Assembly (NCBI RefSeq): GCF_029626105.1
Contig: NZ_JARUBH010000009.1
Location: 6,014,001 to 6,078,000, forward strand
Source: Solwaraspora sp. WMMD792
GTDB lineage: Bacteria; Actinomycetota; Actinomycetes; Mycobacteriales; Micromonosporaceae
DNA length: 64,000 nt
Reading direction: 5' to 3'
Shown here: positions 1-31,923 of the stretch, piece by piece
Position numbering within the stretch: the first letter of the stretch is position 1
Layout: each line of letters starts with the position of its first letter
Notes under the pieces: model-generated
Seen by the model: the letters and a program-made list of their open reading frames with translations, nothing else
Told to the model about the DNA's origin: nothing
Databases searched by the model: none
Made by a program: the position numbers and the translations under genes

Positions 1-1
1 G

Positions 2-1080: not shown

Positions 1081-1137
1081 CCGCCCGGATATGACCGCCC
1101 GGCGGCCGCCGGGCAGACCCCCGAAAGGACACTCACC

Positions 1138-1380
1138 ATGCAGATATTCACCCGCCTCTACCTCGCGGTGGCCGACCGGATCGGCGAGCTGCGCGGCGCC
1201 GCCGAACGGGACCGGGGCGACAGCCCGGTCCCCACCGCGGTGATCATCGTCGGGCTGGCGCTCGTCGCGATCGCCGTCCTCGCCTGGGCGTCGAACCTGG
1301 CGTTCGACTTCATGAACGCCAACCCGGACCCGTCGAGCGACCTGCCGGACTCGGGCAACTTCCCGGGCGGCGGCGATTGA
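1138..1380 (+). CDS. Flp/Tad pilin-like small membrane protein
   Basis: This is an 80-residue protein with a charged N-terminal 30 residues, a single hydrophobic helix (about 33-53, 'VIIVGLALVAIAVLAWA') and a short acidic, Gly/Pro-rich tail. A good ribosome site (AAAGGA) lies about 10 bases before the ATG. Size, single helix and position between tadC and TadE-like genes suggest a structural pilin or a minor TadE-type pseudopilin. A canonical Flp cleavage motif (G before E/F-x4-E-Y) is not obvious, so the exact role is inferred. Confidence 0.65.
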   Translation: MQIFTRLYLAVADRIGELRGAAERDRGDSPVPTAVIIVGLALVAIAVLAWASNLAFDFMNANPDPSSDLPDSGNFPGGGD

Positions 1381-1388
1381 TCGGCGAC

Positions 1389-1898: not shown

Positions 1899-1900
1899 TC

Positions 1901-2386: not shown

Positions 2387-2853
2387 GCCGCGAGCGGCCG
2401 GGCGTCAACCGCCAGCAGCTTGGTGGAACCCGCGACGTGTCCGGTCACCGCGACGCGGGGCGGGTCAGTGTCTTCCTCGCCGTGGCCTTCCTGGCCGTGG
2501 CCACCGTCCTGGGGATCACCGTGGACGCCGCCGGCAAGTACCGCACCAAGCAACGGGCGGACAACCTGGCCGCTGAGGCGGCCCGCACCGGCGGGCAGCA
2601 GATCGACATCGGTCTGGCGGTCAGCGGGGAGGGCCAGTTCATCGACGTCCCGGCGGCCACCGTCGCGGTCGACCACTACTTCGACGACATGCCCGGGGTG
2701 ACCGGGTACACGGTCGAGGTCGCCCCGGATCAGCAGCAGCTGACGGTGACCGTCGACATGACCTACGAGACCACCATGCTCAGCCTCTTCGGTTTCCCGC
2801 CGGGGATCCCGGTGACCGGGCAGGCCACCGCCGTGCTCCGGACCGACCCGTGA
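2383..2853 (+). CDS. TadE/TadG-like pilus-associated membrane protein
   Basis: The ATG overlaps the stop of the upstream TadE-like gene. The 156-residue product has a basic, polar N-terminus, a hydrophobic helix ('VSVFLAVAFLAVATVLGIT', about 29-47), then a soluble domain with 'GKYRTKQRADNLAAEAART', a pattern typical of the TadG-like 'putative Flp pilus-assembly' N-terminal domain in which the helix is followed by an Arg/Ala-rich amphipathic segment. The short length means it lacks the large von Willebrand-type C-terminal domain of full TadG. Confidence 0.75.
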   Translation: MSRERPGVNRQQLGGTRDVSGHRDAGRVSVFLAVAFLAVATVLGITVDAAGKYRTKQRADNLAAEAARTGGQQIDIGLAVSGEGQFIDVPAATVAVDHYFDDMPGVTGYTVEVAPDQQQLTVTVDMTYETTMLSLFGFPPGIPVTGQATAVLRTDP

Positions 2854-2885
2854 CGGGAAGCCGACCCCTCGAGAGGAGCGGCACC

Positions 2886-4085
2886 ATGCGCGCGACCCGC
2901 GTTTCCCCCGTCCGGCGGCTCGGGCAGGTCCTCACCGGCCTGGGTGCGCTGACCGTCCTGTTGATCCTGCTCGCCGGCGCACCGGTCGCGCTGATCGCGT
3001 TCGCCGGCAACCCGCTGCCCGACCACCTGCCCAGCGTCGACGAGATCGGCACCGCGCTGACCAGCCGCGACGACGGGCAGCTCTTCATCCGGGTGTTGGC
3101 GGTGGTCGGCTGGCTGGGCTGGGCGACGTTTCTGCTGTCGGTGCTGGTGGAGGTGCCGGCCCGACTGCTGCGCCGGCCGGCCCCGAAACTGCCCGGCATG
3201 GGCCGTCAGCAGCGGGTCGCCGCCGCGCTGGTCGGAGCGATCTCGCTGATCCTGGTAGCCGGTCCGGCGGCGGCGTACGCCGCACCGGGGCCGGTCGAGG
3301 CGACCTCGGCGGCGGTGGTGGGCACCGGGTTCGGCAGCGCCCCTGAGCTTGCCGCGCCCGCCGGCCAGCAGGCGACGCCGAACCAGCTCGTCGGTGCCTC
3401 CGGGCGGTCCGCCGCGGCGGCACCGGCCGCCGCAGGCTCGCCGGCCCCGCTGGTCTCGCCGGCGGCGTTGCACACGCTCGCGTCGGCACCCACCGGCCCG
3501 GAGAGCGGCGACACAGCACCGACCGATCAGCCGGACGAGGCGGCGGAGCCGGCCGTGTACCGGGTCGCCAAGGGTGACTACCTCGGCCACATCGCCGACC
3601 GCTATCTCGGCGGGTTCAGTGACTACCAGGAGCTGGCCGACCTCAACGAGATCAGCGACCCGGACCGGATCCGGGCCGGACAGCTGCTGCGGTTGCCTGC
3701 CGAGGCGACGGACACCGGTGTACGGCCGCACGCCACCGGCACGGTCGTCACCCCGGCGGTGACGCCCACCCCGTCGCAGCCCACCCCGTCGCAGCCGACG
3801 CCGGAGCAGCCGGCGGCCCCGCAGACCCCGCCGCCCGTCGACGTACCGTCGGACGCCGACCGCCCCGCCTGGCAGGTGGACAACGAGGCGACCGGCAACC
3901 TCGGCGGCGGCGTCTCCGCCGGCCGCTCCGGCCCCGAGCAGAACCTGAACCGTCCGCTCGCGGTGACCGCGGTGATCACCGCGGCGAGCATCGTCGGCGC
4001 GCAGATCGGCACCATGCTCGGGCTGAAGCGGCGTACCGCCGGAACGTCCGGCGAGACCGGCCGGCACCGCCGCGACCGGGGCTGA
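2886..4085 (+). CDS. LysM-domain membrane protein
   Basis: A strong ribosome site (GAGAGGAG) precedes the ATG; an in-frame GTG 36 bases upstream is less likely. The 399-residue product has three N-terminal hydrophobic segments (about 14-40, 63-85 and 107-130), an Ala/Pro/Thr-rich linker, a LysM domain at about 225-272 ('YRVAKGDYLGHIADRYLGG'), a Pro/Thr/Gln-rich spacer and a last membrane helix near the C-terminus. LysM binds peptidoglycan N-acetylglucosamine. Position directly after the pilus genes suggests that it anchors or guides the Tad apparatus in the cell wall; that role is inferred. Confidence 0.85.
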   Translation: MRATRVSPVRRLGQVLTGLGALTVLLILLAGAPVALIAFAGNPLPDHLPSVDEIGTALTSRDDGQLFIRVLAVVGWLGWATFLLSVLVEVPARLLRRPAPKLPGMGRQQRVAAALVGAISLILVAGPAAAYAAPGPVEATSAAVVGTGFGSAPELAAPAGQQATPNQLVGASGRSAAAAPAAAGSPAPLVSPAALHTLASAPTGPESGDTAPTDQPDEAAEPAVYRVAKGDYLGHIADRYLGGFSDYQELADLNEISDPDRIRAGQLLRLPAEATDTGVRPHATGTVVTPAVTPTPSQPTPSQPTPEQPAAPQTPPPVDVPSDADRPAWQVDNEATGNLGGGVSAGRSGPEQNLNRPLAVTAVITAASIVGAQIGTMLGLKRRTAGTSGETGRHRRDRG

Positions 4086-4127
4086 CCTGAGCCGGCACCG
4101 CCGCGACCGCGCCTGCGGCCCGGCTGC

Positions 4128-5744
4128 TCAGCCGCCGCCCGGCCGGAGCTGCCGCTTGTCCGGCTTGCCGCTCGGCCCGACCGGCACCACGTCGATGAAG
4201 GTGACGGTACGGGGCCGGCTGGCCTGGCCGAGCCGGTCGGCCACCAGCTCGCCCAACTCCGCTGGGTCCGGCCGCTCGGCGGTAGCTGGTACGACGAACG
4301 CGTGCACGGCCTCCCCGCTGTGCTCGTCGGGCATTCCGACGACGTATGCCTCGGCCACGCCGGGATGACCGGCCAGGACCCGTTCGATCGGGCCGGCGTA
4401 CTGGATGTTGGCGTCGACGATGATCACGTCACGGATCCGGCCGAGCAGGTACAGGTAGCCGTCGGCGTCGAAGCGGGCGAGATCGCGGGTCCGCACCCAG
4501 CCGTCGACGAACACGGCCGCCGTCTCGGCCGGGTCGGCCCAGTAGCCGGCGGCCTGGCCCGGGGTACGGACGAACAGTTCGCCGGTGCCGCCTGCCGGGA
4601 CCTGGTTGCCGGCGTCGTCGCGGATCTGTGTGTCGACCGGGTCGGGCGGCCGGCCGACGCTGGCCAGCCGGGCCGGCACCGCAGTCATCTCGGCGGGGGT
4701 CAGCATGGCGATCAGGCCGGCCTCGGTCTGGCCGTACCCGTGGTAGACGACCGGCCCCAGCACCGACACAGCCTGGGCCAACCGGCCGGGTTCCAACGGG
4801 GAACCGGAGACCAGCAGGGCGCGCAACGAACCCAGGTCGACCGGACCGGTCCGCTGGCCGGCAACCAGCTGATGCAGCCGGGGCACGGTGATCACGCTGG
4901 CGGTCGCCCGCAGCCGGGCGATCGCGTGAGGCAGGAACGGTTCCGGGCCGCCGGTGGGTTCGGCGATCACGGCAGTGCCGCCGGCGGCCAGGGTCAGCAC
5001 CGTGTACTCCATCATCACCTGGCTGCTCAGCGATCCGAAGACCAGGAAGCGGTCCAGCCTGGCGGCCAGGTCGCGGACGGCTGCCGGCCACCGGTCGGGA
5101 CGCGCCGCCCAGCCCGCACCGAGCGCGGCGTACGTCTGGAGGCAGCCCTTCGGGTTGCCGGTGCTGCCGCTGGTGTAGATGATCCGCCCGCCGTCCCCCG
5201 GACGGCCGGCGCAGTCCAGCGCGGCCGCTGACGGCGGTCCGGCGAGCAGGTCGCGAACCCCGGTCGAGCCGGCGGATCCGCCCAACGGGCCGACGGCGTG
5301 CAGGTCGAGTCCGTCGGCTGCGACCCGTAGCCCGTCGGTCGCCGTGGACCGGTCGACCACCACCGCCCGGTTGGCCGGCACCGTGCCGCCACCGGTGAGG
5401 ACGTGGCGCAACTGCCCCGGTGTCAGCCCAGGTCGCACCCCGGCGACCCGGGCGCCGACCACCTGAGCGGCGATCATGGCGGCGAACGCCTCCGGCGAGA
5501 CGCCGAGCGCCATCGCCACCCCGTCACCCGGCCCGATCCCCGCCGCGCGCAGACCGGTGCTGATCCGCCCGACGGCGTCCAGGAGTTCGGCCCCGGTGAC
5601 GGCGCGCGCACCATGCTCGAACACCGTCCGGTCGGCGGCAGCCGCCAGTAGGTCCAGGATCGGCTGCGGGTACACCGGGGCCGGCCCGGCCGGACCAGGC
5701 AGCTCGGCCGGACCGGGCAGCTCGGCCGGCTCAACTGCCGACAT
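4128..5744 (-). CDS. ANL-superfamily acyl/aryl-CoA ligase (AMP-binding)
   Basis: This 538-residue adenylating enzyme has the P-loop YTSGSTGNPKG at 190-200, the A5 motif YGQTEAG at 337-343, RTRDLARFD at 418-426, the hinge GRIRDVII at 435-442 and the A10 lysine in PSGKPDK (Lys527). It should activate a carboxylate as acyl-AMP and then transfer it to CoA. The substrate cannot be read; the neighbouring ammonia-lyase makes a cinnamate/coumarate-type acid a reasonable guess. The first 25 residues carry a duplicated AELPGP motif. It overlaps the upstream FAD oxidoreductase gene by 14 bases, so the two form one operon. Confidence 0.85.
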   Translation of the reverse strand: MSAVEPAELPGPAELPGPAGPAPVYPQPILDLLAAAADRTVFEHGARAVTGAELLDAVGRISTGLRAAGIGPGDGVAMALGVSPEAFAAMIAAQVVGARVAGVRPGLTPGQLRHVLTGGGTVPANRAVVVDRSTATDGLRVAADGLDLHAVGPLGGSAGSTGVRDLLAGPPSAAALDCAGRPGDGGRIIYTSGSTGNPKGCLQTYAALGAGWAARPDRWPAAVRDLAARLDRFLVFGSLSSQVMMEYTVLTLAAGGTAVIAEPTGGPEPFLPHAIARLRATASVITVPRLHQLVAGQRTGPVDLGSLRALLVSGSPLEPGRLAQAVSVLGPVVYHGYGQTEAGLIAMLTPAEMTAVPARLASVGRPPDPVDTQIRDDAGNQVPAGGTGELFVRTPGQAAGYWADPAETAAVFVDGWVRTRDLARFDADGYLYLLGRIRDVIIVDANIQYAGPIERVLAGHPGVAEAYVVGMPDEHSGEAVHAFVVPATAERPDPAELGELVADRLGQASRPRTVTFIDVVPVGPSGKPDKRQLRPGGG

Positions 5745-7290
5745 CGGTGAGGCACTCCTTCACGAACACGGCCAGCGGCTGTTGATGCACGCTCGCCAGG
5801 TCCCACTCGTTCTCCAGATTCTCGGCGAGGTGGTGCACCGCGCGTACCTGGCCGCCGCTGTGGAACCGCACCACCGGGTGCAGGTAGGTGGCGTCGTGGG
5901 CGGCGGCGGCGTCGTTTTCCGCGACCCGGGGCACCGACACGTCGAACGGGTCGACCGAGTCGTGGTTCGCCCCGTACTCCAGGGTGACGGCGAAGGCAGG
6001 CAGGCTGGCACCGAGCCCACCGTCGGCCAGGTACGCCAGCGGCACCTCCTCGTGGTGGTACGCCGAGCCGTCCGGTCCGACGGTTACCACGTCGGCGAGC
6101 ACGCCGAACTGCTGCCACAGCGCCGACGACCGGTTGACCCGGGCGACGAGTGCGTCGGTGATTGCCTCCGGGGTGGCGTCGAGTTTGGTGGTCGGCCAGC
6201 CGGTGCCGTGGTACCGGGCGCCGAGGATGCGGTACAACGCCCGTACCCCGTACCGGAAGCCGTGGATGAATCCGCTGGTCGACGTCTTGAAGTCGCGTTG
6301 CTGGGTGAGCGTGCCGGTGAAGTACAGGTCGGGCACGGTGGTCGACTCGAAGGCGGACGTCTGCTCGGGGAACCGGTCGTTGATGACCAGCCGGGGCCGG
6401 CACGTGTCGTCGAAGATGCCGGCGTCGAACCGGAACCCGGTGCAGGCGATCACCCGGTCGTACCGGATCTCCCGGATGGCTTCGACCGTCCGGGCGTAGC
6501 GGAACCGGACCAGGTAGCGGCCGTCGGCGTCGCGGGTGATGCGCTCGATCGTGCCGTCGAGCACCGCGTTCTGCGACTTCAGCTGGTAACTGTCGAGGAA
6601 GTTGTTGTTGACCGCCCGCAGGTGGCCGACGTAATGCGTCTGCCAGGCGAACCGGACGGAGCGGGGACCGGCGACGTGGATGACGGCCGCCGTTTCCATC
6701 AGCGCGTCGGCGGTCTCGAATCCGGAGTTGCCCTTACCGATGATCATGACGCGCTGGCCGGTGAAGTCGGTCGGGTCGACGCTGACGGTGTCGTAACGTT
6801 CTGCCGTCTCGATGCCGGGGATCGGCGGGACGTACAGCTGCGACACTCCGGTCGCGACGATCACCCGGCGGGCGTGCCAGGTCCGGCCGTGTTCGTCGAG
6901 TACGGCGAACCCGTCGCCGTCGCGACCGATCCGCATCACCCGGGTCTGGTACTCGACCCGTACCCCGGTGGCGCTGGCGAAGTCGGCCAGGTAGCGGACC
7001 AGGTCGTCGGCTGCCGGGAAGTACCGCTTGCTGTACCGGGTGAACAGCAGCTCCGGATCGTCGCTGAGCAGCGAGTTCCAGTCCATCCGCAGCCGAAGTT
7101 CGGCGTCGTCGTAGCCGGTGTGCACCTTGTTGATGGAGATCAGTTGCCGGTGCCGGGGATAGCGGGTGAAGAACGTGCCGGGGGCGGCCCCGGCCTCGAG
7201 GACCGCGTAGTCGTGGCCGTCGCGGTGCATCAGGGCGGCGAGCTGAAGTCCCGCGGGCCCGGCACCGATGATCAGATAGTCGTGTGCCAT
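5731..7290 (-). CDS. FAD-dependent oxidoreductase, FOXRED2-like (copy 1)
   Basis: The product has 519 residues. GAGPAG at 9-14 binds FAD and GKGNSG at 185-190 is a second dinucleotide site for NAD(P)H. The segment 'YPRHRQLISINKVHTG' (44-59) and 'WNSLLSD' (71-77) recall the eukaryotic FOXRED2/ERFAD family and its bacterial relatives more than classical FMOs; the FMO/BVMO fingerprint FxGxxxHxxxW is not seen before the second Gly motif. A close relative lies 1.7 kb away on the other strand. It is the first gene of a minus-strand pair with the ligase and diverges from the ammonia-lyase. The substrate is unknown; an N- or C-oxidation of an aromatic intermediate is a guess. Confidence 0.8.
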   Translation of the reverse strand: MAHDYLIIGAGPAGLQLAALMHRDGHDYAVLEAGAAPGTFFTRYPRHRQLISINKVHTGYDDAELRLRMDWNSLLSDDPELLFTRYSKRYFPAADDLVRYLADFASATGVRVEYQTRVMRIGRDGDGFAVLDEHGRTWHARRVIVATGVSQLYVPPIPGIETAERYDTVSVDPTDFTGQRVMIIGKGNSGFETADALMETAAVIHVAGPRSVRFAWQTHYVGHLRAVNNNFLDSYQLKSQNAVLDGTIERITRDADGRYLVRFRYARTVEAIREIRYDRVIACTGFRFDAGIFDDTCRPRLVINDRFPEQTSAFESTTVPDLYFTGTLTQQRDFKTSTSGFIHGFRYGVRALYRILGARYHGTGWPTTKLDATPEAITDALVARVNRSSALWQQFGVLADVVTVGPDGSAYHHEEVPLAYLADGGLGASLPAFAVTLEYGANHDSVDPFDVSVPRVAENDAAAAHDATYLHPVVRFHSGGQVRAVHHLAENLENEWDLASVHQQPLAVFVKECLTDVGS

Positions 7291-7379
7291 GGCGCGACGC
7301 TAGCGGTGGGTATTCAGAGATTCATCAGACCCGATGGGCTGGGTCCGGGGTGGTCGGGCTGAGAGTGTTCTGAGATTCC
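7291..7379. promoter_or_regulatory. divergent promoter region with two TTCwGAGATTCm boxes
   Basis: This 89-bp gap separates the divergent FAD oxidoreductase and ammonia-lyase genes. Two near-identical 12-mers read in the same direction, TTCAGAGATTCA at 7313-7324 and TTCTGAGATTCC at 7368-7379. Direct repeats are the usual operator form for OmpR-family regulators, and one is encoded at the end of this gene run. The second box abuts the GTG at 7380, so either that transcript is leaderless or the true start is the GTG at 7398. The assignment is inferred. Confidence 0.4.
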
Positions 7380-8957
7380 GTGGTTACGGTCGGCGAGGTG
7401 ACCAGCAATACGGTGACCGAGATCGATGCAATCGATCTGATCGGCCCCCTGCACCCGGCCGACCTACGGCGCGTGGCTGCCGCAGTGCACATCGAGGTCA
7501 CTGCGGCGGTACGCGGCCGGGTGCAGGGTTGCCGTTCGTATCTGCGTGGCGTGCTCGACGGCGACCGGACCGTCTACGGCGCGACTACCGGCTTCGGCGC
7601 CCTGGTCGGCTTCGCCGGCCGGGACAACGACGCCGACCAGGCCGACAACACCCTGGCGCACCTCGGTGCCGGTCAGGGCCCGGACATCGACCCGGCGGTG
7701 GCCCGGGCCGCGATGCTCGTCCGGGTGTGGTCGTTGGCCCAGGGTGCCTCCGGCGTGTCACCACACGTGGTCGACGCACTGGTCGCCATGCTCGCGACCA
7801 CGTTCGCTCCGGCGATGCCCCGGTTCGGGTCGGTCGGGGCCAGCGGTGACCTGATCCCGCTGGCGTACGCCACCCAGTCGCTGCGCGGTCAGGGCCACGC
7901 CTACCTCGACGGTGAGCGGCTACCGGCGGCCGAGGCGCTCCGGCGGGCCGGGCTGCGGCCGTTGACACTCGACGGACGGGACGCGCTGGCCTTGGTGAAC
8001 GGCACGTCGGTGACGACGGCCGCGCTCGGGACCGCGCTGCACGACGTCCGGGTGGCGCACCGGTCGGCGCAGCGGCTGGCCGCGCTGCTCGCCGACGTGC
8101 TCGGCTGCGACACGCACCAGTTCCTGCACCCGCGACTGATCGCGGCGTACGGCCATCCGGGCGCGGTCGAGGTGGCGGCGCGGATGCGTGGGCTGCTGGC
8201 CGGGGCGCGGCCGTCGGGCAGCCGGCCGCTGCAGGAGGCGTACAGCATCCGGTGCGGTCCGCAACTGCTCGGCGCGGCCGAGGGCGCGTTGCGCTACGCG
8301 GACACGGTGTTGGCGGCGGACCTGGCCGGGGTCAGCGACAACCCGCTGTTCTTTCCGGACGACGATCTGGTGCTGCACGGCGGGAACTTCTTCGGCCAGC
8401 CAGCCGCGTTCGCCGCCGACGTGCTGGCGATGGTCACCGCCCAGGTCGGCAACCTGGTCGAGCGGCAACTGGATCTGCTGGTCGATCCGGCCCGCAACGG
8501 TGGTCTGCCGCCGATGCTCGCCGCCGGCCCCGGCCAGCAGCACGGGCTGCAGGGTGCGCAGCTGGCGGCGACCGCGCTGGTCGCGCAGCTGCGCCGGGAA
8601 GTCGCGCCGGTCAGTTCGCAGAGTCTGCCCACCAACCTGCACAACCAGGACGTCGTGCCGTTCGGCACCCAGGCCGCGCTGCGCGCGGTGGACCAGGCGC
8701 GGCTGCTGCGGCTGATCTGCGGTTCGCTGGCGGTCGGGCTGCGCCAGGCGGTGCACGTGGGGGCGCGTCGGCCGACCGCACCGGGCTGCGCTCAGCTGCT
8801 CGACCAGCTGGTCGAGGTGGTGCCGGCGATCGATCCGGACCGCCCGCTCGACCAGGACGTACGCCGGGCAGCCGACCTGCTCGACCACGTCGACGAGGCG
8901 GCCGGCGGTGGATCGACAGACGCCGGACCTGACCGGCAGGCAGCGGAACCTCGGTAA
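7380..8957 (+). CDS. MIO-type aromatic amino acid ammonia-lyase, tyrosine-lyase-like
   Basis: This 525-residue member of the HAL/PAL/TAL/aminomutase family carries the self-cyclising Ala154-Ser155-Gly156 triad in 'GSVGASGDLIPLA' that makes the MIO electrophile, and the catalytic Tyr in VYGATTGFG (Tyr66). The substrate-selectivity pair reads His94-Leu95 in 'TLAHLGAG', exactly 60 residues before the MIO, as His89-Leu90 is in Rhodobacter sphaeroides tyrosine ammonia-lyase; HAL has Ser-His and PAL has Phe-Leu there. It should release ammonia from L-tyrosine to give p-coumarate, though aminomutase activity cannot be excluded. The start could also be the GTG 18 bases downstream. It heads the plus-strand run of the locus. 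Confidence 0.85.
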   Translation: MVTVGEVTSNTVTEIDAIDLIGPLHPADLRRVAAAVHIEVTAAVRGRVQGCRSYLRGVLDGDRTVYGATTGFGALVGFAGRDNDADQADNTLAHLGAGQGPDIDPAVARAAMLVRVWSLAQGASGVSPHVVDALVAMLATTFAPAMPRFGSVGASGDLIPLAYATQSLRGQGHAYLDGERLPAAEALRRAGLRPLTLDGRDALALVNGTSVTTAALGTALHDVRVAHRSAQRLAALLADVLGCDTHQFLHPRLIAAYGHPGAVEVAARMRGLLAGARPSGSRPLQEAYSIRCGPQLLGAAEGALRYADTVLAADLAGVSDNPLFFPDDDLVLHGGNFFGQPAAFAADVLAMVTAQVGNLVERQLDLLVDPARNGGLPPMLAAGPGQQHGLQGAQLAATALVAQLRREVAPVSSQSLPTNLHNQDVVPFGTQAALRAVDQARLLRLICGSLAVGLRQAVHVGARRPTAPGCAQLLDQLVEVVPAIDPDRPLDQDVRRAADLLDHVDEAAGGGSTDAGPDRQAAEPR

Positions 8958-8979
8958 TTGTCCTTCGTAGCGTCAGGCG

Positions 8980-10560
8980 GTGAATCAAGCGATGCTCGAC
9001 TATCTGATCATCGGGGCGGGCCCGGCCGGGCTCCAGCTCGCGTCGCACTTCGAACAGTCCGGACAAGCGTCCTACCTGGTGCTGGAGGCCGCCGGCGCAC
9101 CGGGCGCCTTCTTCGAGCGTTACCCGCGGCACCGCCAGTTGATCTCGATCAACAAGCCACACACCGGCTCCACCGACCCCGAGCTGAACCTGCGGCTGGA
9201 CTGGAATTCGCTGCTCAGCGACGACCCGGACCTGCTGTTCACCCGGTACACCGAACGGTACTTCCCGGATGCCGACCTGATGGTGCGCTACCTGGCCGAC
9301 TTCGCCGCCACGACCGGCGTTCGGGTGCAGTACGAATGCCGGGTGACCCGGGTGGCCCGCGACCCGGCCGGTGGCTTCGAGGTCACCGACGGGTCGGGCA
9401 CGGTGCACCGGGCGCGCCGCGTCGTGGTGGCGACCGGGGTGTCCCAGCCGTACGTTCCGCCGGTGCCCGGCATCGAGCTCGCCGAAGGGTACGGCGACAT
9501 GCCGGTCGACCCAAAGGACTTCCTCGACCAACGGGTGTTGATCATCGGCAAGGGCAACTCGGCGTTCGAGACGGCCGACAACCTGCTGGAGACCACAGCG
9601 TTGATCCACGTGGCCGGGCCGAGTTCGATCCGGATGGCGTGGCGCACCCACTACGTGGGGCACCTGCGCGCGGTGAACAACAACTTCCTCGACACGTACC
9701 AGTTGAAGTCGGCCAACGCCATCCTGGACGGTGAGGTGCGAAGCATCGTCCGCGACGCGGCCGGCTACCGGGTGCGGTTCAGTTTCAGCCGGGCCGACGA
9801 GGTCGTCAAGGAGCTGCCCTACGACCGGGTGCTGGTCTGCACCGGCTTCCAGTTCGACCCGTCGATCTTCGCTGCGGACACCCGTCCGGCGCTGACGATC
9901 AAGGACCGGTTCCCGGCCCAGACCGCCGAGTGGGAATCGGTGAACGTGCCGGACCTGTTCTTCGCCGGCACGCTCACCCAGCAACGCGACTTCAAGAAGT
10001 CGACCAGCGGATTCATCCACGGCTTCCGGTACGGCGTCCGCGCGCTGCACCGGATCCTGCGGCGGCGTTACCACGGTGAGGCCTGGCCGGCGGAGAAGCT
10101 CGACGCCGACCCGGCCGCGCTGGCCGACGCCATCATCGCCCGGGTCAACCGCACCTCCGCGCTGTGGCAACTGTTCGGGGTGCTCGCCGACGTGCTGACC
10201 GTGGCCGGGTCGGATGTCCGCTACCACGAGGAGGTGCCGGTCGACTACCTGGTGGGCAACGGGCTGTCCGCGCCCGGCCACGAGCCGACCCACGCCTTCG
10301 CGGTCACCTTGGAGTACGGGCCCGAGCACGATCAGGTGGACCCGTTCGACGTGTCGATCAACCGGATCGCCCAGGACTCGGCCGGCCAGGCGCACGACGC
10401 CGCGTACCTGCATCCGGTGGTCCGGCTCTACCGCGACGGCGTCGTGACCGACGTCCACCACCTGGCGGAGAACCTGGAGAACCGGTGGGACCGGCCGGAC
10501 GTGCACCGGGCGCCGCTGGTCGCCTTCCTGGACCGTTGCCTGGCCCCCGTACGCGGATGA
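8980..10560 (+). CDS. FAD-dependent oxidoreductase, FOXRED2-like (copy 2)
   Basis: This 526-residue protein is closely similar along its whole length to the minus-strand FAD oxidoreductase upstream: GAGPAG at 13-18, 'YPRHRQLISINKPHTG', WNSLLSDDP, GKGNSA for the second dinucleotide site, and a matching C-terminal half. The pair clearly arose by duplication and both keep intact cofactor motifs. The start is GTG; an in-frame ATG four codons on (8992) is possible. It lies 22 bases after the ammonia-lyase and overlaps the next gene by ATGA, so it is co-transcribed. Two paralogues kept in one locus suggest successive or heteromeric oxidation steps; that is inference. Confidence 0.8.
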   Translation: MNQAMLDYLIIGAGPAGLQLASHFEQSGQASYLVLEAAGAPGAFFERYPRHRQLISINKPHTGSTDPELNLRLDWNSLLSDDPDLLFTRYTERYFPDADLMVRYLADFAATTGVRVQYECRVTRVARDPAGGFEVTDGSGTVHRARRVVVATGVSQPYVPPVPGIELAEGYGDMPVDPKDFLDQRVLIIGKGNSAFETADNLLETTALIHVAGPSSIRMAWRTHYVGHLRAVNNNFLDTYQLKSANAILDGEVRSIVRDAAGYRVRFSFSRADEVVKELPYDRVLVCTGFQFDPSIFAADTRPALTIKDRFPAQTAEWESVNVPDLFFAGTLTQQRDFKKSTSGFIHGFRYGVRALHRILRRRYHGEAWPAEKLDADPAALADAIIARVNRTSALWQLFGVLADVLTVAGSDVRYHEEVPVDYLVGNGLSAPGHEPTHAFAVTLEYGPEHDQVDPFDVSINRIAQDSAGQAHDAAYLHPVVRLYRDGVVTDVHHLAENLENRWDRPDVHRAPLVAFLDRCLAPVRG

Positions 10561-11708
10561 ACGGGACCACGCTGCCCAGCGTCGCCGCCCCGGTGAACCT
10601 GGCCGACCTGCGGGCGGCGGCCCGTCGCCAGCTCGACCCGGCGCACGACGACTTCTTCGCCGGCGGTGCCGGCGACGAACGGACCGTACGCGACAACGAA
10701 GCCGCCTTCGACGCCTACCGGGTACTGCCCCGGGTGCTGCGCGGCGTCGGCGCCCGTGATCTGCGGGTGGAGCTGTTCGGCGAGACGGTCTCGATGCCCG
10801 TGCTGGCCTCGCCGACCGCCTTTCACCGGCTCGCCCACCCGGACGGGGAGGCGGGTTGTGCCCGCGCGATCGCGGCGGCCGGCACGATCATGGTGGTGAG
10901 CATGGCCGCCACCACCCCGGTGGAGACCATCGCGGCCGCCGCCGCCACGGTGGCGCCCGAGCCGGCGCCGGCCAGCGGCCCGCCCCGGCCGCCGAAGTTG
11001 TGGTTCCAGCTCTATCCGCAGCCGGATCTGGCGTTCACCGAGTCGGTGATCCGGCGCGCGGAGGCGGCCGGCTGCGGTGCGCTGGTGGTCACTGTCGACT
11101 CGCCGGTGTTCGGCCGGCGCGAACGGGACCTACGGCACGGCTTCCTGGACCTGCCCGACGGGCTGTGCTGCGAAAACATGCGCGATCCGGTGACCGGCGA
11201 GATCCGGACGATCACGATGGACGCCGCCCTGGACTGGCGGCGGATCGACTGGCTGCGGCAAACCACTCGGCTGCCGCTCGTACTCAAAGGCGTCCTGCAC
11301 CCCGCCGACGCCGCGCTGGCCGTCGAACACGGGGTCGACGCCGTGCTGGTGTCCAACCACGGCGGGCGGCAGCTCGACGGCGTACCGGCCAGCGTCGACG
11401 CGCTGCCCGCCGTCGTCGACGCGGTCGCGGGCCGCCTCCCGGTGCTGCTCGACGGCGGGGTACGGCGCGGCACCGACGTGCTCACCGCGTTGGCGTTGGG
11501 CGCGGTCGCCGTCGGCGTCGGCCGGCCGGTGCTGTGGGGCCTGGCCGCCGGCGGTGAGCTGGGCGTACGCCAGGTCCTGGAGCTGCTGCGGGCCGACCTG
11601 GACCGGGCGATGGCGCTTGCCGGAGCGGACTCTCCGGCCGCGATCACCCCGGACCTGGTCACCCCGGCGGTGGGCGGCCGAGCGTGGCCGGTGGGGGTAC
11701 GCCGATGA
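10557..11708 (+). CDS. FMN-dependent alpha-hydroxy-acid oxidase/dehydrogenase
   Basis: This 383-residue TIM-barrel flavoprotein of the glycolate oxidase/lactate oxidase/mandelate dehydrogenase family keeps the catalytic block SNHGGRQLDG (His and Arg), the flavin-binding Lys in LVLKGV, the Tyr in FQLYPQ and the FMN phosphate region DGGVRRGTDV. The active-site Tyr24 of glycolate oxidase is Phe here (DDFFAGGAG, residues 31-39), as I recall it also is in hydroxymandelate oxidases. It should oxidise an alpha-hydroxy acid to the keto acid; an aromatic substrate is likely from the neighbours. The ATG overlaps the previous stop and its own stop overlaps the P450 start. Confidence 0.85.
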   Translation: MNGTTLPSVAAPVNLADLRAAARRQLDPAHDDFFAGGAGDERTVRDNEAAFDAYRVLPRVLRGVGARDLRVELFGETVSMPVLASPTAFHRLAHPDGEAGCARAIAAAGTIMVVSMAATTPVETIAAAAATVAPEPAPASGPPRPPKLWFQLYPQPDLAFTESVIRRAEAAGCGALVVTVDSPVFGRRERDLRHGFLDLPDGLCCENMRDPVTGEIRTITMDAALDWRRIDWLRQTTRLPLVLKGVLHPADAALAVEHGVDAVLVSNHGGRQLDGVPASVDALPAVVDAVAGRLPVLLDGGVRRGTDVLTALALGAVAVGVGRPVLWGLAAGGELGVRQVLELLRADLDRAMALAGADSPAAITPDLVTPAVGGRAWPVGVRR

Positions 11709-13081
11709 CCGGGTCCGGCGTACTCGTGCTGCTTGCCCTCGTGGCGGCGGCGGTCCTGGTGTGGACGCTGCCCCGCTGGCTGCCGCCGGCGGTGATCGGC
11801 CTGCGACAGTGGGTGTTCGCCCGGGTGAACGGTGGTGAAGGGATCGCGGTGCCCGGCCCGCTGGTCGGCGCGGAGCACTTCGAGCGGGTGTACGCCCATC
11901 CGGCGGCGGACGGACGCAGCCGGGGCGCGGGCCTGTCCGATCTGTTCTGGTACTGGTTGTCTCCGGGGCCGCACATGCACCAGGAGCACCTCGAGCCGGG
12001 TGAGCGCTACCGCACCGTGGCCCGGACCACCCGGCGGGTGCTGGCCGTGTCGCAGCGACGGTCGACGGAGTTAGCCGCCGCAGCCGCCTGCCGGCAGCTG
12101 GACCGGCTGCCGCCCGAGCGGACCAGCCTGGTGCGGCTACGCGACATGATGCTGCCGATCTGGGCCGAGGTCTACTACGAGCTGGTTTTCGGTGAGGCGT
12201 GCCCGCCGGACGCGCGGGCGCTGATCGTCGCGAACGCCGCCGACGTGTCGTCCGCGCTGAAGTGCAGTGGGCTGCGGCACCTGGGCCGGCGGAACCGGTT
12301 GACCCGCTATCTGCGGGCCCGCGTCGACGCGGGGACCGCCCCGGTCGTGCTGCCGGAGCCGTTCACCGCCCAGGAGACCGCCTGGTACCTGCACGGTGCG
12401 TTCTTCACCACGGCGGTCGTGCAGATGTCCGAGGCGATGGCGCATCTGCTGCTGGCCGTCGCTCAGCATCCGCCGACGCAGCTCGCGGTGCGCCGGGCGT
12501 TGGACGGGCCGGCGGAGGCCGCCGACGAGCTGCTCGACCGGGTGATCGACGAGACGTTGCGGGTGCATCCACTGTTCGGGGTGGCGCACCGGATCACCTC
12601 GGCACCGATCGAGGTGGATGCCGGCACCACCCTGCCGGCCGGCTCGGTGCTGCTGTTCAACTATCTGGCCTTCCAGCGCACCGGACCGGCCGCCGACGAC
12701 GACTTCGACCCGGACCGTTGGTTGCGGCTGTCCCGGCGGGAGGCGCACTTCGTCCCGTTCGGCGTCACCGCGAACCGGGCCTGCCCGGCGCGCGGCGTCG
12801 CGCCGGTGATGATGCGCGCGGCGACCCGCGAGGTGCTGCGCCGGTACGCGCTGGTCTCCTCGGTACGCCACGACCGGTCGTTGCCCAGCCGGGGTCCGTG
12901 TTTCCTGATCCCGGCCGGTTCGGGCGAGGTCGGGCGGCTGCGGCTGTGGCTGATGCGCACCGAGGACCGGTGGGCCGACGTCTGGCGAAGCCTGGTCCAG
13001 CTGGTGCTGGGCAGTGTGATGGTGCTCCACGCGCGACGGCTGCGGCTGTGCGCGAACCACTTCGACCAGGCCGGGCGCTGA
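11705..13081 (+). CDS. membrane-anchored cytochrome P450, atypical motifs
   Basis: The 458-residue product starts with a hydrophobic helix (about 5-22, 'GVLVLLALVAAAVLVW'), rare in bacterial P450s. The K-helix ExxR is Glu283-Arg286 (DETLRVHP) and the heme thiolate is Cys360 in FGVTANRACPARG. That loop is longer than FxxGxRxCxG and has Ala where Gly is usual. In the I-helix HGAFFTT (230-236) the acidic residue before the Thr pair is replaced by Phe. About 98 residues follow the Cys, including a hydrophobic stretch, longer than normal. It is likely a heme enzyme acting at the membrane on the locus product; the chemistry may differ from standard hydroxylation. Confidence 0.85.
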   Translation: MTGSGVLVLLALVAAAVLVWTLPRWLPPAVIGLRQWVFARVNGGEGIAVPGPLVGAEHFERVYAHPAADGRSRGAGLSDLFWYWLSPGPHMHQEHLEPGERYRTVARTTRRVLAVSQRRSTELAAAAACRQLDRLPPERTSLVRLRDMMLPIWAEVYYELVFGEACPPDARALIVANAADVSSALKCSGLRHLGRRNRLTRYLRARVDAGTAPVVLPEPFTAQETAWYLHGAFFTTAVVQMSEAMAHLLLAVAQHPPTQLAVRRALDGPAEAADELLDRVIDETLRVHPLFGVAHRITSAPIEVDAGTTLPAGSVLLFNYLAFQRTGPAADDDFDPDRWLRLSRREAHFVPFGVTANRACPARGVAPVMMRAATREVLRRYALVSSVRHDRSLPSRGPCFLIPAGSGEVGRLRLWLMRTEDRWADVWRSLVQLVLGSVMVLHARRLRLCANHFDQAGR

Positions 13082-13108
13082 CGCTGCCGAAACTTCGCTG
13101 GAGGGCCG

Positions 13109-14392
13109 ATGAGTACGGTCGATCTGGCGCCACGGTTCTTCATCGCCGTGGCTGTCATCCTGCTCTGCTGCCGGACGGTCGCCTGGCTGCTCGGCAGGGT
13201 CGGCCAGCCGGCCGTGGTGAGCGAGATGCTCGCCGGGGTCCTGCTCGGGCCGTCGTTGCTCGGGCTGCTCGCCCCGACCGCCCAGCGGGCGCTGTTCCCG
13301 GAACAGCTGCATCCGGTGCTGTACGTCGTCGGGCAGATCGGCCTGGTGATGTTCATGTTCCAGGTCGGGTACGCGTTCACCACCCACCGGGTGGCCGACC
13401 TGGCCGGCACCGCCGGCGCGGTCTCGGCCGCCGGGGTGCTGGCACCGTTGGCGCTGGGTGCGCTGCTGGTGTTCGCCACCGCCGGACGTGTGCCGGTGCT
13501 CGCCGACGGGGTCCCGACCGGGGTGACGGCGGCGTTCGTCGGCGTCACCCTGGCGGTGACCGCGTTTCCGATGCTCGCCCGGATCGTCACGGAACGCGGG
13601 CAGGCCGGCACCCGGCACGGTTCGCTGGCCCTGGCCAGTGGCGCGATCGACGATGTGGTGGCCTGGATACTGCTTGCCGTGGTCCTCGCCGTGGCCACCG
13701 GTCGGCCCGGTCCGGCGCTGGTCACCGTCGGCGGGGCGGTGCTGTTCGGGCTGCTGCTCTGGCAGTTCGGGGCCCGGACGGCGGCGGCGCTGATGCGCGA
13801 CGGCCGGCTCGGTGACCAGTCCCGGCTGCTGGCCGTCGTGACGCTGTTGTTCGCGGTGGCGTGGTACACCGACGAGATCGGGCTGTACGCCGTCTTCGGC
13901 GCGTTCGCGCTCGGTGCGGTGATGCCGCACGATCCGCGGACCGACCGGGTGGTGGAGACGCTGGTCCCGGTGTGTCAGACCGTCTTCCTGCCGTTGTTCT
14001 TCACCTATTCGGGCCTGCACACCGAGTTCGGCCTGCTCGGTGATCCGTCGGTGCTGCTGTTCGCGCTGGCCTGCGTGGCGGTCGCGATCCTGGGCAAGTT
14101 CGGATCATGCTGGTTGGCGGCCCGGCTCAGGGGCGAGCCGAGCGGCGTGGCGTTGCGGGTCGGCGCGTTGATGAACGCCCGTGGCCTGATGCAGCTCATC
14201 GCGCTCAACATCGGCTTGTCCACCGGTGTCGTCAACTCTACGATGTTCACCGCGTTGGTACTGGTCGCCCTGGTGACGACGTTGATGACCACGCCGCTGC
14301 TGAGCTGGTTCGAACGTGTCGATCGCCGCCGAAGGGCCGAACCGGCCGCAGTCCTGACCGTCGACCCGCCGGCCGAAGTCCCTAGAAATTGA
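13109..14392 (+). CDS. CPA2-family cation/proton antiporter
   Basis: This 427-residue protein has about 12 hydrophobic segments and reads as a Na+(K+)/H+ exchanger of the CPA2/KefB-NapA type: VGQPAVVSEMLAGVLLGPS in the first helices, 'TAFPMLARIV', the ion-site region 'ASGAIDDVVAW' with paired Asp, and 'NARGLMQLI' near the end. No RCK/TrkA domain follows. It begins 27 bases after the P450, with GGAGG upstream of the ATG, and seems part of the same operon. Such antiporters occur in several antibiotic loci, where they may serve export, resistance or ion balance; which one applies here is unknown. Confidence 0.85.
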   Translation: MSTVDLAPRFFIAVAVILLCCRTVAWLLGRVGQPAVVSEMLAGVLLGPSLLGLLAPTAQRALFPEQLHPVLYVVGQIGLVMFMFQVGYAFTTHRVADLAGTAGAVSAAGVLAPLALGALLVFATAGRVPVLADGVPTGVTAAFVGVTLAVTAFPMLARIVTERGQAGTRHGSLALASGAIDDVVAWILLAVVLAVATGRPGPALVTVGGAVLFGLLLWQFGARTAAALMRDGRLGDQSRLLAVVTLLFAVAWYTDEIGLYAVFGAFALGAVMPHDPRTDRVVETLVPVCQTVFLPLFFTYSGLHTEFGLLGDPSVLLFALACVAVAILGKFGSCWLAARLRGEPSGVALRVGALMNARGLMQLIALNIGLSTGVVNSTMFTALVLVALVTTLMTTPLLSWFERVDRRRRAEPAAVLTVDPPAEVPRN

Positions 14393-14439
14393 CGAAGGTC
14401 TATGTAAATCCAGGTCTGGTGTGCGATTCTCGACAGGTG

Positions 14440-15123
14440 ATGACGGCAAGCGTGACGTCGCCACCGGCACTGCGCCTGCTCCTGATCGAGGACGACGCGG
14501 ACCTCGCGGGTCTGCTGACCGAAGTGCTGGCCGACGAAGGGTACCGGGTCGACGCCGCCCGCGACGGACAACGCGGACTGCATCTAGGGCTTACCCGACC
14601 GTACGACGTCATGGTCATCGACCGGGTGCTGCCCGCGATCGACGGGTTGAACCTGCTCACCCGGCTGCGGTCCCGTTCGGTGCAGGCCCGGGCGTTGATG
14701 CTGACCGCGCTCGGCGCGGTCGACGACCGGATCGCCGGTCTTGACGCCGGCGCCGACGACTACCTGGTGAAACCGTTCGAGCTGGACGAGCTGGCGGCCC
14801 GGCTGCGGGCACTGTGCCGGCGCGCCTTCGACACCGCCGAGACGGTACGGGTCGGTGACGGCTGGCTCGACCTCGGGCTGCGGGACGTGGTGCTGCCCGA
14901 CGGGTCCCGGGTCGCCCTGTCGCTGCGGGAGTTCGACCTGCTCCGGGTGATCGCCATGACGCCGACGAGGGTGCACTCCCGGTCCGGGCTGCGTCGGCAG
15001 GTGTTCGACGACGCCCACGCCACCTCCATCGTCGACACATATGTCTACTATCTGCGCCGCAAGCTCGGCCGGTCGGTGATCCGGACGGTACACGGAGTCG
15101 GCTACCGGCTCGGTGAGCTCTGA
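14440..15123 (+). CDS. OmpR/PhoB-family response regulator
   Basis: This 227-residue regulator has a receiver domain with the acidic pair Glu17-Asp18-Asp19, phospho-acceptor Asp61 (VMVIDRVLP) and Lys111 (DDYLVKPF), then a winged-helix DNA-binding domain ending 'VDTYVYYLRRKLGRSVIRTVHGVGYRLGEL' in which the conserved RRKL and GVGYR elements are clear. GTG three bases upstream (14437) and TTG at 14389 are alternative starts. The stop overlaps the start of the kinase gene, which forms a coupled pair. Position after the antiporter suggests that it controls the biosynthetic run. Confidence 0.85.
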   Translation: MTASVTSPPALRLLLIEDDADLAGLLTEVLADEGYRVDAARDGQRGLHLGLTRPYDVMVIDRVLPAIDGLNLLTRLRSRSVQARALMLTALGAVDDRIAGLDAGADDYLVKPFELDELAARLRALCRRAFDTAETVRVGDGWLDLGLRDVVLPDGSRVALSLREFDLLRVIAMTPTRVHSRSGLRRQVFDDAHATSIVDTYVYYLRRKLGRSVIRTVHGVGYRLGEL

Positions 15124-16469
15124 TGCCCCGACCCTCGCTGGAGCCGGTCGGCACCTCCTGGGCGGCCGCCGAACGCAAGGTCATCACGCGGGCCCGGCTG
15201 CGCGTCGGCGCGCTGGTCGGCCTCGCGGTCACCGCACTGGTCACCCTGGTCGGCGGGATCGCCTACGGCATGCTCGTGCACGGGCAGGAGAAACAGATCG
15301 ACCGGGAGCTGCGGTACACCGCCAGCCGCGGCGACCCGTCCGGGCCCCCGGGCTGCACCTGGCTGTTCCTGCGCGGCGGCGGCGAGCCGCAAGACGCGGC
15401 CCTTCCCGCACTGCAGACAGCAGGAGTCCCCGCACCGGCCGGATTCCCGCTGCGCCAGGTAATGGAGACGGTTGCCGCGACCGGCATCGAGCAGGTGACC
15501 AGGGTCGAGCGCAACGACACCGTCTACTTCGTCCTCACTCAGCCCCGGGGCGGCGACACCATTCAGGCCGTCTTCGACGCCCGTTACCACCTCGCCGACC
15601 GACGGCACCTGCTCCTGGCCCTGTCCATCACCGAGGGGATCGGACTGCTGGCCGCGCTGGCCAGTGGGATGGTCGTCGGCTGGCTCACGGTCGCGCCACT
15701 CGCCGAGGCGCTCGCGCGTCAGCGGCGCTTCATCGCCGACGCCAGCCACGAGCTGCGTACGCCCATCGCCCAGGTGCACACCCGGGCGCAGGTGCTCGCC
15801 CGCCGGGCCCGTAACGGCAACGGCAACATTCCGTCCGAATACGCCGCCGACCTGGACCGGCTGGTCGGCACCACCCGGCAACTCGGTGAGGTGGTCGACG
15901 ACCTGCTGCTGTCCGCCCGACTCGGCGCCGCCCCGGCCGACCGTGCCTCCGACGCGCCGGTCGACCTGGCCGCCATCGTCGAGGACGCGGTCCTCGCCGA
16001 GAGCGACCGGGCACAGGAGTACGACGTGGTGATCGCCCTGGACCGGTCCGCCGGTCCGCTGCCGGTGGCCGGGGTCTCCTCGGCGCTGCGCAGGGTGGTG
16101 TCCGAGCTGCTGACCAACGCGTTGCGGCACTCCCGACCGGGCGGCCGGATCGACGTCGCCGTCTGCCGCACCGCCGTCGGCGACACGATCGAACTGACCG
16201 TCGCGGACACCGGCGACGGCTTCGCCCCCGACGAGCGCATCTTCGACCGGTTCCATCGCGGGGCCGGGGCGGACCGGCTGCACATCGGCCTAGGCTTGGC
16301 GTTGCTGCGGGAGGTGGTGACGGCGCATCGCGGCACCATCGAGGCCGCCGGCCACCCCGGTGCGGGCGCGAAGTTCACCGTACGGTTGCCGGCTGCCGCC
16401 GTACGGTCGGATCAGGGCAGTTGGGCCTGCACGACACCGGCCACCACCCGGCTGCGCAGCACCTGCTGA
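15123..16469 (+). CDS. membrane sensor histidine kinase
   Basis: This 448-residue kinase has two membrane helices (about 24-50 and 165-190) flanking a ~110-residue external sensor domain, then the HisKA phospho-acceptor in DASHELRTP (His209), the N-box ELLTNALRHSR, the G1 box DTGDGFAP and the G2 region HIGLGLALL. It is the partner of the response regulator with which it shares TGATG. The last ~58 bases run convergently into the Rieske gene on the other strand, so its true C-terminal end overlaps that gene. The signal sensed is unknown. Confidence 0.85.
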   Translation: MPRPSLEPVGTSWAAAERKVITRARLRVGALVGLAVTALVTLVGGIAYGMLVHGQEKQIDRELRYTASRGDPSGPPGCTWLFLRGGGEPQDAALPALQTAGVPAPAGFPLRQVMETVAATGIEQVTRVERNDTVYFVLTQPRGGDTIQAVFDARYHLADRRHLLLALSITEGIGLLAALASGMVVGWLTVAPLAEALARQRRFIADASHELRTPIAQVHTRAQVLARRARNGNGNIPSEYAADLDRLVGTTRQLGEVVDDLLLSARLGAAPADRASDAPVDLAAIVEDAVLAESDRAQEYDVVIALDRSAGPLPVAGVSSALRRVVSELLTNALRHSRPGGRIDVAVCRTAVGDTIELTVADTGDGFAPDERIFDRFHRGAGADRLHIGLGLALLREVVTAHRGTIEAAGHPGAGAKFTVRLPAAAVRSDQGSWACTTPATTRLRSTC

Positions 16470-17263
16470 TCGGTGGCGGCCGGGCCGTGGGCGACGGTGC
16501 CGTCGGTGAGCCGGAACGCGCTGCCGTGCCACGGGCAGACCACGCAGGCGTGACCGTCCGCGCTGATCACCTCACCCTGGTCGAGGGGTCCGTTCTGGTG
16601 GGCGCAGTGCGCCAGCAGCACCGTGACGTCCTCGCCGTGCCGGTAGACCAGCACCGGCACGTCGTCCACCTGCCGGCTGATCATTCCCGATTCGGGCAGC
16701 TTGGCGAACTCGGCGATCGGGTGCCAGCCGGCGGAGATCCGATGCAGCTCGGGCACTGCGTGGTTGACCCCGGCGGCCTGCTTGTAGGCGAGATGACCGC
16801 CGAGGAAGCCGCCGGCACCGACCGCGGCGAGGCCGAGGAATCCGAGCGTACGGCCGGTCTGGTGGCGGCCGCGCAGCCGGGCGACCAGTGACCCGGCGTA
16901 GCAGGCGATGCCGACGGTGTTGGCGATCGCGTGCACCAGACCGATCCGGCGCTGCTCGCGGGACAGGCTCGCCCAGTCGTTCGCTCCGGTGACCGCCGCC
17001 GGCAGTGCGGCGGCGGTGCCGACGCCGACCAGGGTGGTGGCGGCCCGTCGCTGGCCGGGCAGCGTGTCGAGTACGGCGGCGCTCAGCCAGGCACCCATCG
17101 GCACCTGGATCAGCACCGGGTGCAGCGGATGCCCCAGCCACACCCCGTGCAGCAGGTCGCGGACCCGTTCGTTGCTGATCCGCCGCTGAACGCTCTGCTG
17201 CAGCCGGTCGCCGATCCGGTCCAGCCCGGTCGCCTGCTCGATCTTCATCAACAGTGCCCGCAT
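16412..17263 (-). CDS. Rieske [2Fe-2S] protein with DUF2231 membrane domain
   Basis: The product of 283 residues starts at 'MRALLMKIEQATGL'. An N-terminal DUF2231-type membrane region with four or so helices ('HPLHPVLIQVPMGAW') is followed by a C-terminal Rieske domain that holds the cluster ligands in CAHQNGPLD and CVVCPWHG (Cys-x-His and Cys-x2-His). It should be a membrane electron-transfer protein. This fusion is widespread in actinobacteria and has no settled function. The 3' end overlaps the histidine kinase gene on the opposite strand. Confidence 0.85.
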   Translation of the reverse strand: MRALLMKIEQATGLDRIGDRLQQSVQRRISNERVRDLLHGVWLGHPLHPVLIQVPMGAWLSAAVLDTLPGQRRAATTLVGVGTAAALPAAVTGANDWASLSREQRRIGLVHAIANTVGIACYAGSLVARLRGRHQTGRTLGFLGLAAVGAGGFLGGHLAYKQAAGVNHAVPELHRISAGWHPIAEFAKLPESGMISRQVDDVPVLVYRHGEDVTVLLAHCAHQNGPLDQGEVISADGHACVVCPWHGSAFRLTDGTVAHGPAATDQQVLRSRVVAGVVQAQLP

Positions 17264-17411
17264 CGTCCCGACGTTCCCGCCTGACGCCCGGTCAAACCTC
17301 GACGGTCTTGCATATGCCGGGCCAAGTTGGAGCTCTACGGAACGCGGTCCGTCGCGTCGAAGTAGCTGCGGACGGCGGTCGTCAAGGCCGTGAGAGTTGT
17401 GCTCCCCCGCC

Positions 17412-25464: not shown

Positions 25465-25480
25465 GCGCCCATCCTAGCGA

Positions 25481-31901: not shown

Positions 31902-31923
31902 CAATTGATCAAGGAGAGAAAAG

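Follow-up and report, generated by a model that had tools for sequence, protein, structure and literature searches.

Organization of the locus

The 64,000-nucleotide stretch analyzed here (the window) comes from Solwaraspora sp. WMMD792 (contig NZ_JARUBH010000009.1, positions 6,014,001 to 6,078,000 of the forward strand). Between positions 4128 and 16469 it contains a locus for an aromatic amino acid lyase, an ANL ligase, two paralogous FAD flavoproteins (FADa and FADb), an FMN-dependent 2-hydroxy-acid oxidase (HAO), a cytochrome P450 (P450), a CPA2-type antiporter, and a two-component system consisting of a response regulator (RR) and a histidine kinase (HK). Gene calls from open reading frames combined with Pfam and NCBIfam profile matches give nine genes, one fewer than had been counted in an initial annotation made from the sequence alone. 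As stated there, the genes form two divergent units, ANL-FADa on the reverse strand and lyase-FADb-HAO-P450-antiporter-RR-HK on the forward strand (Table 1), and none of the nine encodes a polyketide synthase (PKS) or nonribosomal peptide synthetase (NRPS) core. The mostly overlapping stops and starts described at the same time are present at ANL/FADa, FADb/HAO, HAO/P450, and RR/HK, and the lyase/FADb and P450/CPA2 pairs are instead separated by short gaps. CPA2 and RR overlap only if RR starts at 14389. The HAO start at 10557 is situated within a longer frame (10164–11708).

Table 1. Features of the locus, in coordinates of the window
Feature	Position	Strand	Evidence
ANL ligase (ANL1 clade)	4128..5744	-	Pfam AMP-binding, E 5.5e-52; P-loop TSGSTG and catalytic Lys
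FADa, two-dinucleotide-fold flavoprotein (PF13738)	5731..7290	-	Pfam, E 4.6e-45; FADa clade
Divergent promoter region FADa/lyase	7291..7379		Related sequence kept in five congeners
Operator-like direct repeat TCAG-N7-TCAG	7314..7328	-	CTGA-N7-CTGA when read toward FADa
Operator-like direct repeat CTGA-N7-CTGA	7359..7373	+	Directed toward the lyase gene
MIO-type aromatic amino acid lyase	7380..8957	+	Pfam, E 5.2e-130; alignment to 2o6y
FADb, paralogue of FADa	8980..10560 (start maybe 8992)	+	Pfam; 67% identity to FADa
FMN 2-hydroxy-acid oxidase (HAO)	10557..11708	+	Pfam FMN_dh, E 1.1e-124, scored on the longer frame
Divergent P450 with long N-terminal helix	11705..13081	+	Pfam, E 2.1e-13; fold match Z 26.7
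CPA2-type cation/proton antiporter	13109..14392	+	Pfam Na_H_Exchanger, E 2e-50; TIGR00932 below cut-off
OmpR/PhoB-family response regulator (RR)	14389 or 14440..15123	+	Response_reg and Trans_reg_C
Sensor histidine kinase (HK)	15123..16469	+	HisKA and HATPase_c

Co-inheritance of the gene set

Using the FADb protein as the query, 115 loci including the window were collected, and the removal of 19 duplicates or near-duplicates left 96 loci, drawn from a wide range of actinobacterial genera and in some cases truncated at contig ends. In this sample the presence of an FAD gene follows from the way it was built, and that of the other families does not. FAD genes were called in 94 loci, ANL in 88, HAO and P450 in 79 each, CPA2, RR, and HK in 71 each, and the lyase in 66; the family that ranks after these is present in 10. 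The lyase count is a lower bound, as the simple gene caller missed some that translated searches reveal. In Streptomyces and Saccharothrix the gene orders differ and the set is still close together.

A search of 250 Micromonosporaceae genomes with P450, lyase, and FADb shows nested sets. P450 is present in 61 genomes. An FAD protein of at least 60% identity is found in 55, all of which also have the P450, and a lyase of at least 69% identity in 52, all of which have both. These identity limits were picked after the hits were known; they exclude a third FAD paralogue (at most 49%) and two lyases at 61% (G005 and G141). The six genomes that have P450 and lack an FAD protein of at least 60% are five congeners, described below, and G019. 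Fisher's test on the nested occurrence gives p < 1e-40, a value that ignores shared ancestry. The grouping is conserved far beyond chance, and the view of the set as one functional unit is supported by its co-inheritance in related genomes.

Two variations at the edges of the set were observed. A different transporter family beside P450 replaces CPA2 at six loci (L047, L048, L112, L117, L120, and L124), the member at L047 being an MFS protein. Genes resembling an ABC system for the uptake of iron compounds are located near the ligase end at L038, L051, L060, and L087 (at least four genomes), and the one protein of these that was scanned is a Peripla_BP_2 protein.

Modular structure of the locus

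Two modules, each with a history of its own, are combined here: lyase-FADa-ANL1 (module 1) and FADb-HAO-P450-antiporter-RR-HK, in some cases with its own ligase, ANL2 (module 2). Module 1 (lyase, FADa, and ANL) stands alone at the fetched locus in Nonomuraea, Microbispora, Actinomadura rudentiformis, Rhodococcus rhodnii, and others. All 15 searched genomes with such a locus (L092 was left out) contain a P450 elsewhere that is 56–61% identical. Eight of these second loci were fetched, and every one contains FADb-HAO-P450-CPA2, with an adjoining ANL gene in four and RR-HK in four. Twelve genomes have a fetched locus that lacks the lyase: five of them encode a lyase of at least 60% identity elsewhere, and in seven the best relative is 36–41% identical. 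Module 2 is therefore able to stand on its own. In G024, G103, and G253 the lyase located elsewhere adjoins FADa and ANL. Among the genomes tested, module 1 occurs together with module 2, and module 2 is also found alone.

Trees of the FAD and ANL proteins were built with FastTree. FADa forms one clade (72 labeled and 2 unlabeled sequences, support 0.96) that is nested in the diversity of FADb, with supports of 0.72–0.91 on the nodes below the root. The idea that FADa is an independent ancient lineage is consequently unsupported under the root used. The ANL tree splits into two clades that follow gene context, one of 85 FADa-linked sequences, including the ANL of the window, and one of 11 from module-2 loci. 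FADa/FADb and ANL1/ANL2 are therefore paralogue pairs that follow module context, and module 1 looks like a duplicated FAD-ANL pair that was joined to a lyase.

Natural deletions in congeners

Six congeners were compared, and the five with the locus were aligned to the window at the nucleotide level; congener G093 gave no P450 match. In the five, only ANL, HAO, P450, RR, and HK are present, at the same site and between the same flanking genes. Three blocks are missing from all five with near-gene precision: one is FADa, one takes in the lyase after about codon 50 and FADb, and one is CPA2. All five keep the first lyase codons and, whole or in part, the spacer between FADa and the lyase. Because the 5' lyase codons persist, the congeners must have lost the four genes (lyase, FADa, FADb, and antiporter) jointly, and the window did not gain them; a gain was rejected on the same ground for the history of the genus.

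The retained genes are intact. All motifs that were checked are present, and the ratio of nonsynonymous to synonymous substitution rates (dN/dS) of ANL, HAO, and P450 is 0.17–0.40 among the congeners and the window, compared with 0.14–0.37 for the same three genes in nine pairs of full loci. The congener ANL, HAO, and P450 are still under purifying selection. When positions 1–17300 of the window are compared with congener G114 (L158) in steps of 500 bases, the identity is 93–97% outside the locus and 75–91% from 4.5 to 15.5 kb. This mosaic suggests that full and reduced alleles have been exchanged by recombination, and the copy in the window may have returned in this way.

The initial annotation suggested that the enzyme set could turn tyrosine into one oxidized product. 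The unit is not a single linear pathway, however: the five congeners keep the ligase, oxidase, P450, and two-component pair without the lyase, FAD proteins, and antiporter. The joint absence of the latter means that the tyrosine lyase is not an obligate first step for everything that the locus encodes. This joint loss, with the ligase, P450, and oxidase kept, is the best clue to the mechanism: the FAD chemistry there is tied to the lyase and antiporter part, and the P450 is retained without it. Other loci, L106 and L139 among them, combine FADb and the antiporter with P450-HAO although their genomes do not have this lyase, which points to a further role of FADb that does not depend on the lyase.

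Conserved residues of the lyase, ligase, oxidase, and P450

The lyase contains the triad Ala154-Ser155-Gly156 that forms the 4-methylideneimidazole-5-one (MIO) group, conserved in 66/66 homologues, and His94-Leu95 is found in 65/66 with one gap. Tyr66, Tyr288, and Arg291 were also located, and the residues counted are kept in 65–66 of the 66. The best solved match is 2o6y, deposited as a putative histidine ammonia-lyase, which we take to be the Rhodobacter tyrosine ammonia-lyase (TAL). His94 aligns with a His of 2o6y, presumably His89 of the Rhodobacter enzyme, the residue that would set the preference for tyrosine; the 2o78 sequence has a Phe there. The lyase shares with 2o6y the MIO triad, the catalytic Tyr, the Arg that holds the carboxylate, and the His-Leu selectivity position, all of which have established roles in TAL. 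The earlier description as TAL-like is thus borne out at the selectivity position. The lyase differs from 2o6y in that its gene, TAL-type by sequence alone, adjoins FAD and ANL genes. A second lyase subfamily of about 60% identity is present at L161, L162, and L175 in a stretch without FAD, HAO, or P450 genes.

The ANL ligase keeps the P-loop and the C-terminal catalytic lysine: Ser192, Gly193, and Gly526-Lys527 are found in 88/88 sequences and Ser194 in 87/88. In HAO the catalytic residues Asp181, Lys244, His268, and Arg271 are conserved in 79/79 and Tyr153 in 77/79 relatives; Arg188 occurs in only 52/79. The top solved match of HAO is a tandem lactate oxidase, and the best single-domain matches are hydroxyacid oxidases 3, 2, and 1, followed by glycolate oxidase and 4-hydroxymandelate oxidase. 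Phe33, at what we take to be the position of the substrate Tyr in glycolate oxidase numbering, is shared with hydroxyacid oxidases 3 and 2 (Phe in 51/79 relatives, Tyr in 28/79). HAO belongs to the same FMN_dh family as these enzymes and has their catalytic Tyr, Asp, Lys, His, and Arg. In contrast to the setting of 4-hydroxymandelate oxidase, the nine genes include neither a hydroxymandelate synthase nor an aminotransferase, so that the hydroxyl group would have to come from the P450.

The heme ligand Cys360 of the P450 is conserved in 79/79 sequences, and the ExxR residues Glu283 and Arg286 in 78/79 and 76/79. The acid-alcohol pair of the I-helix, canonical in P450s and lacking in some true members of the family, is absent from all 79 sequences: the acid position is Asn in 69, Thr in 9, and Gly in 1, followed by an invariant Thr236 (79/79), and the window reads Thr235-Thr236. 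The fold match covers 344 residues with a root mean square deviation (rmsd) of 4.5, the C-terminal helices being barely covered; the underlying model has a mean predicted local distance difference test (pLDDT) score of 76 that is low in the heme region.

The FAD flavoproteins

FADa and FADb contain two Rossmann motifs, GAGPAG and GKGNSG/GKGNSA. FxGxxxHxxx[YFW], located between the two Rossmann motifs, is the motif of class B monooxygenases, with the exception of the N-hydroxylating (NMO) subclass, which is reported to keep only the His (PMC7570161). With the class B enzymes (flavin-containing (FMO), Baeyer-Villiger (BVMO), and NMO) the FAD proteins of the window share the same two Rossmann motifs, including GKGNS[AG], and FMO and SsDesB structures are among the matches; the FxGxxxHxxx[YFW] motif itself is absent. 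By eye, the equivalent position reads YxxxxxDxxx[FY], with the Asp in 148/159 FAD sequences. A redox-active Cys pair like that of thioredoxin/glutathione-type disulfide reductases was not found; the commonest Cys columns (126/159 and 106/159) are 14 positions apart. The initial annotation called the two proteins FOXRED2-like. FOXRED2/ERFAD is a human endoplasmic reticulum flavoprotein implicated in endoplasmic reticulum-associated degradation. ERFAD is reported to carry an NADPH motif and to lack cysteines at the positions that form the active site of glutathione reductase (PMC5751730). The FAD proteins of the window resemble this description in their pair of nucleotide motifs and in the missing Cys pair.

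For an AlphaFold2 model of FADb (mean pLDDT 80), two folds tie as the closest, that of YpdA at Z 24.5 (rmsd 3.3 over 315 residues) and that of a bacterial FMO at Z 23.7 (rmsd 2.8 over 312 residues), in matches that barely cover the residues beyond about 450. Foldseek also ranks ferredoxin reductases high. A role of the FAD proteins as obligate redox partners of the P450 is disfavored, as the P450 is intact in the five congeners without FADa and FADb. Several FAD homologues with one in-frame TGA had raised the idea of selenoproteins; they are read as alignments that run past the terminal stop, the reported frames being mostly of protein length or longer.

A third FAD paralogue (46% identical) is encoded in the same genome (C9, about 6954000–6965100; L146:1-11102), near a PKS gene (KS-AT-KR-DH) and an UnbV_ASPIC gene. 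The domains of this region suggest an enediyne-like set. A nitroreductase gene lies beside the paralogue, and the same neighbor is found in 7/8 genomes examined.

The divergent promoter and the flanking regions

The plain repeat CTGA-N7-CTGA found in the window is not general upstream of FADa (6/79 regions, shuffle mean 0.3), and therefore a dyad form was examined. Fourteen regions, the window among them, yielded the dyad CTCAGA-N4-TCTGA (or TCAGA-N4-TCTGAG). It gives 109 hits, overlapping forms counted, across 67 loci out of 116, with some overlap between a few of the loci, compared with 0–5 hits in five Markov-randomized sets. After the removal of duplicates, a dyad is located at most 200 bp upstream of FADa in 60/70 loci, 31–33 bp before the start in 55 of them, and the same loci contain another 23 sites at other places; the counts still include the 13 non-window regions used in the derivation. 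We infer that the local RR binds the repeats of the divergent promoter. Repeats of the CTGA-N7-CTGA type also occur upstream of FADb (26/85 regions, shuffle mean 0.3), a possible second operator.

On the left, the locus is flanked by genes that look like a putative Tad/pilus set. On the right there is a Rieske/DUF2231 gene (16412–17263, Pfam). It was rejected as a redox partner or member of the set, since none of the loci examined, apart from those of the window and the five congeners, has it next to the set. Further along the window, positions 24000–32000 have a lower G+C content (0.63–0.66) and contain genes for a DUF5753 helix-turn-helix regulator and a short-chain dehydrogenase.

Discussion

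We propose, with a probability of roughly 0.55, that the locus encodes a two-module oxidative pathway to a small specialized metabolite, most likely derived from tyrosine, that is switched by its own two-component system. The order of the chemistry draws on knowledge of the families. The lyase would convert L-tyrosine to p-coumarate, and the pathway is probably fed by an aromatic amino acid. Each ANL ligase would activate an acid that its partner FAD enzyme modifies with NADPH. In the core (ANL, P450, and HAO), an acid would be oxidized at C2, the P450 introducing a hydroxyl group that the FMN oxidase converts to a keto group, and the lyase/FAD part would feed or decorate this core. The antiporter could remove the acid load or protect against a reactive product, and RR would act on the divergent promoter. 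The phenylpropanoid-coenzyme A (CoA) or arylglycolate product named in the initial annotation is a guess.

Several observations weigh against this proposal. The scheme is drawn from the genes alone, and the reaction type of the FAD enzymes is not fixed by their motifs: neither FADa nor FADb matches the class B motif, and a redox Cys pair was sought among 38 sequences, which have no invariant Cys. None of the nine proteins reaches the cut-off of an NCBIfam model shown. The boundary between the modules is not clean, ANL1, a module-1 gene, having stayed with HAO-P450 in the five congeners, where the dN/dS values tend toward the top of those seen in full loci and a slight relaxation is possible. 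The lyase gene of G020 is separate from its cluster, and relatives with about 60% identity to the lyase are found where the other genes of the set are missing. No dyad was found at the module-2-only loci inspected or at L165, a module-1 locus, and the window contains just the two direct repeats, a variant of the dyad found elsewhere.

That the nine genes are mere neighbors with separate housekeeping roles is very improbable. The two modules are indeed unlinked in some genera, as such a view would have it, and yet it is already contradicted by the nested occurrence (its p value uncorrected for shared ancestry), by a proximity that survives rearrangement, and by the loss of four genes as a set. 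A catabolic or protective function is a more serious contender, though an unlikely one. Incoming lipophilic or aromatic acids would be α-hydroxylated by the P450, oxidized by HAO, and ligated to CoA, with the antiporter and two-component system as a stress response. Consistent with such an α-oxidation, the ANL ligase scores best against models of long-chain fatty-acid CoA ligases (all below cut-off), hydroxyacid oxidases 3 and 2 are the best single-domain matches of HAO and share its Phe33, the P450 combines a long N-terminal helix with the absence of the usual I-helix acid, and the lyase-free part is what the congeners kept. However, two FAD-ANL pairs and a co-inherited TAL-type lyase would be superfluous for catabolism, and no genes for ring cleavage or β-oxidation are shared, no other family being present in more than 10 of the 96 neighborhoods.

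The MIO enzyme could instead be a tyrosine 2,3-aminomutase, with an oxidized β-tyrosine activated by the ANL ligase as in the side chains of enediynes; this too we regard as unlikely. The NCBIfam aminomutase model scores 281 bits, above the FlxA TAL model (243) and below hutH (368), all under their cut-offs; solved aminomutases are among the good matches; and the third FAD paralogue of the genome is located beside the enediyne-type PKS gene set. On the other hand, the best solved match is 2o6y, taken here as the Rhodobacter TAL, and the residues examined cannot separate a lyase from a mutase. The proposed tyrosine-derived pathway has a more far-reaching version, which we put forward tentatively and consider rather less probable than the proposal itself. 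The locus would then represent a widespread actinobacterial natural-product pathway outside PKS and NRPS logic, built on a duplicated FAD-ANL pair, with a new type of metabolite and a dispensable FAD/lyase-dependent part. One FAD-ANL pair would take a TAL-derived cinnamic acid and the other a second acid, and the P450 without the usual I-helix acid would pass a 2-hydroxy acid to the FMN oxidase. If this is true, the FAD family would be a new class of flavoenzyme, neither a class B monooxygenase nor a disulfide reductase.

Among the matches listed in the open-licence literature, no described pathway or cluster has this gene set, in agreement with what had been suspected from the sequence. Clusters of the ava type in actinomycetes lead to p-coumaric and avenalumic acids, with a deamination that is reported to depend on diazotization (PMC10777205). 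Both systems are actinobacterial; for the deamination, the window encodes an MIO lyase instead.

The gene set is common to genera that have been much mined for antibiotics, and no product is assigned to it among the open-licence literature matches listed. Its FAD family is a good target for new flavin chemistry. The reduced loci of the congeners constitute a natural gene-deletion series, in which the contribution of the lyase, FAD proteins, and antiporter to the metabolites could be separated from that of the ligase, P450, and oxidase alone.

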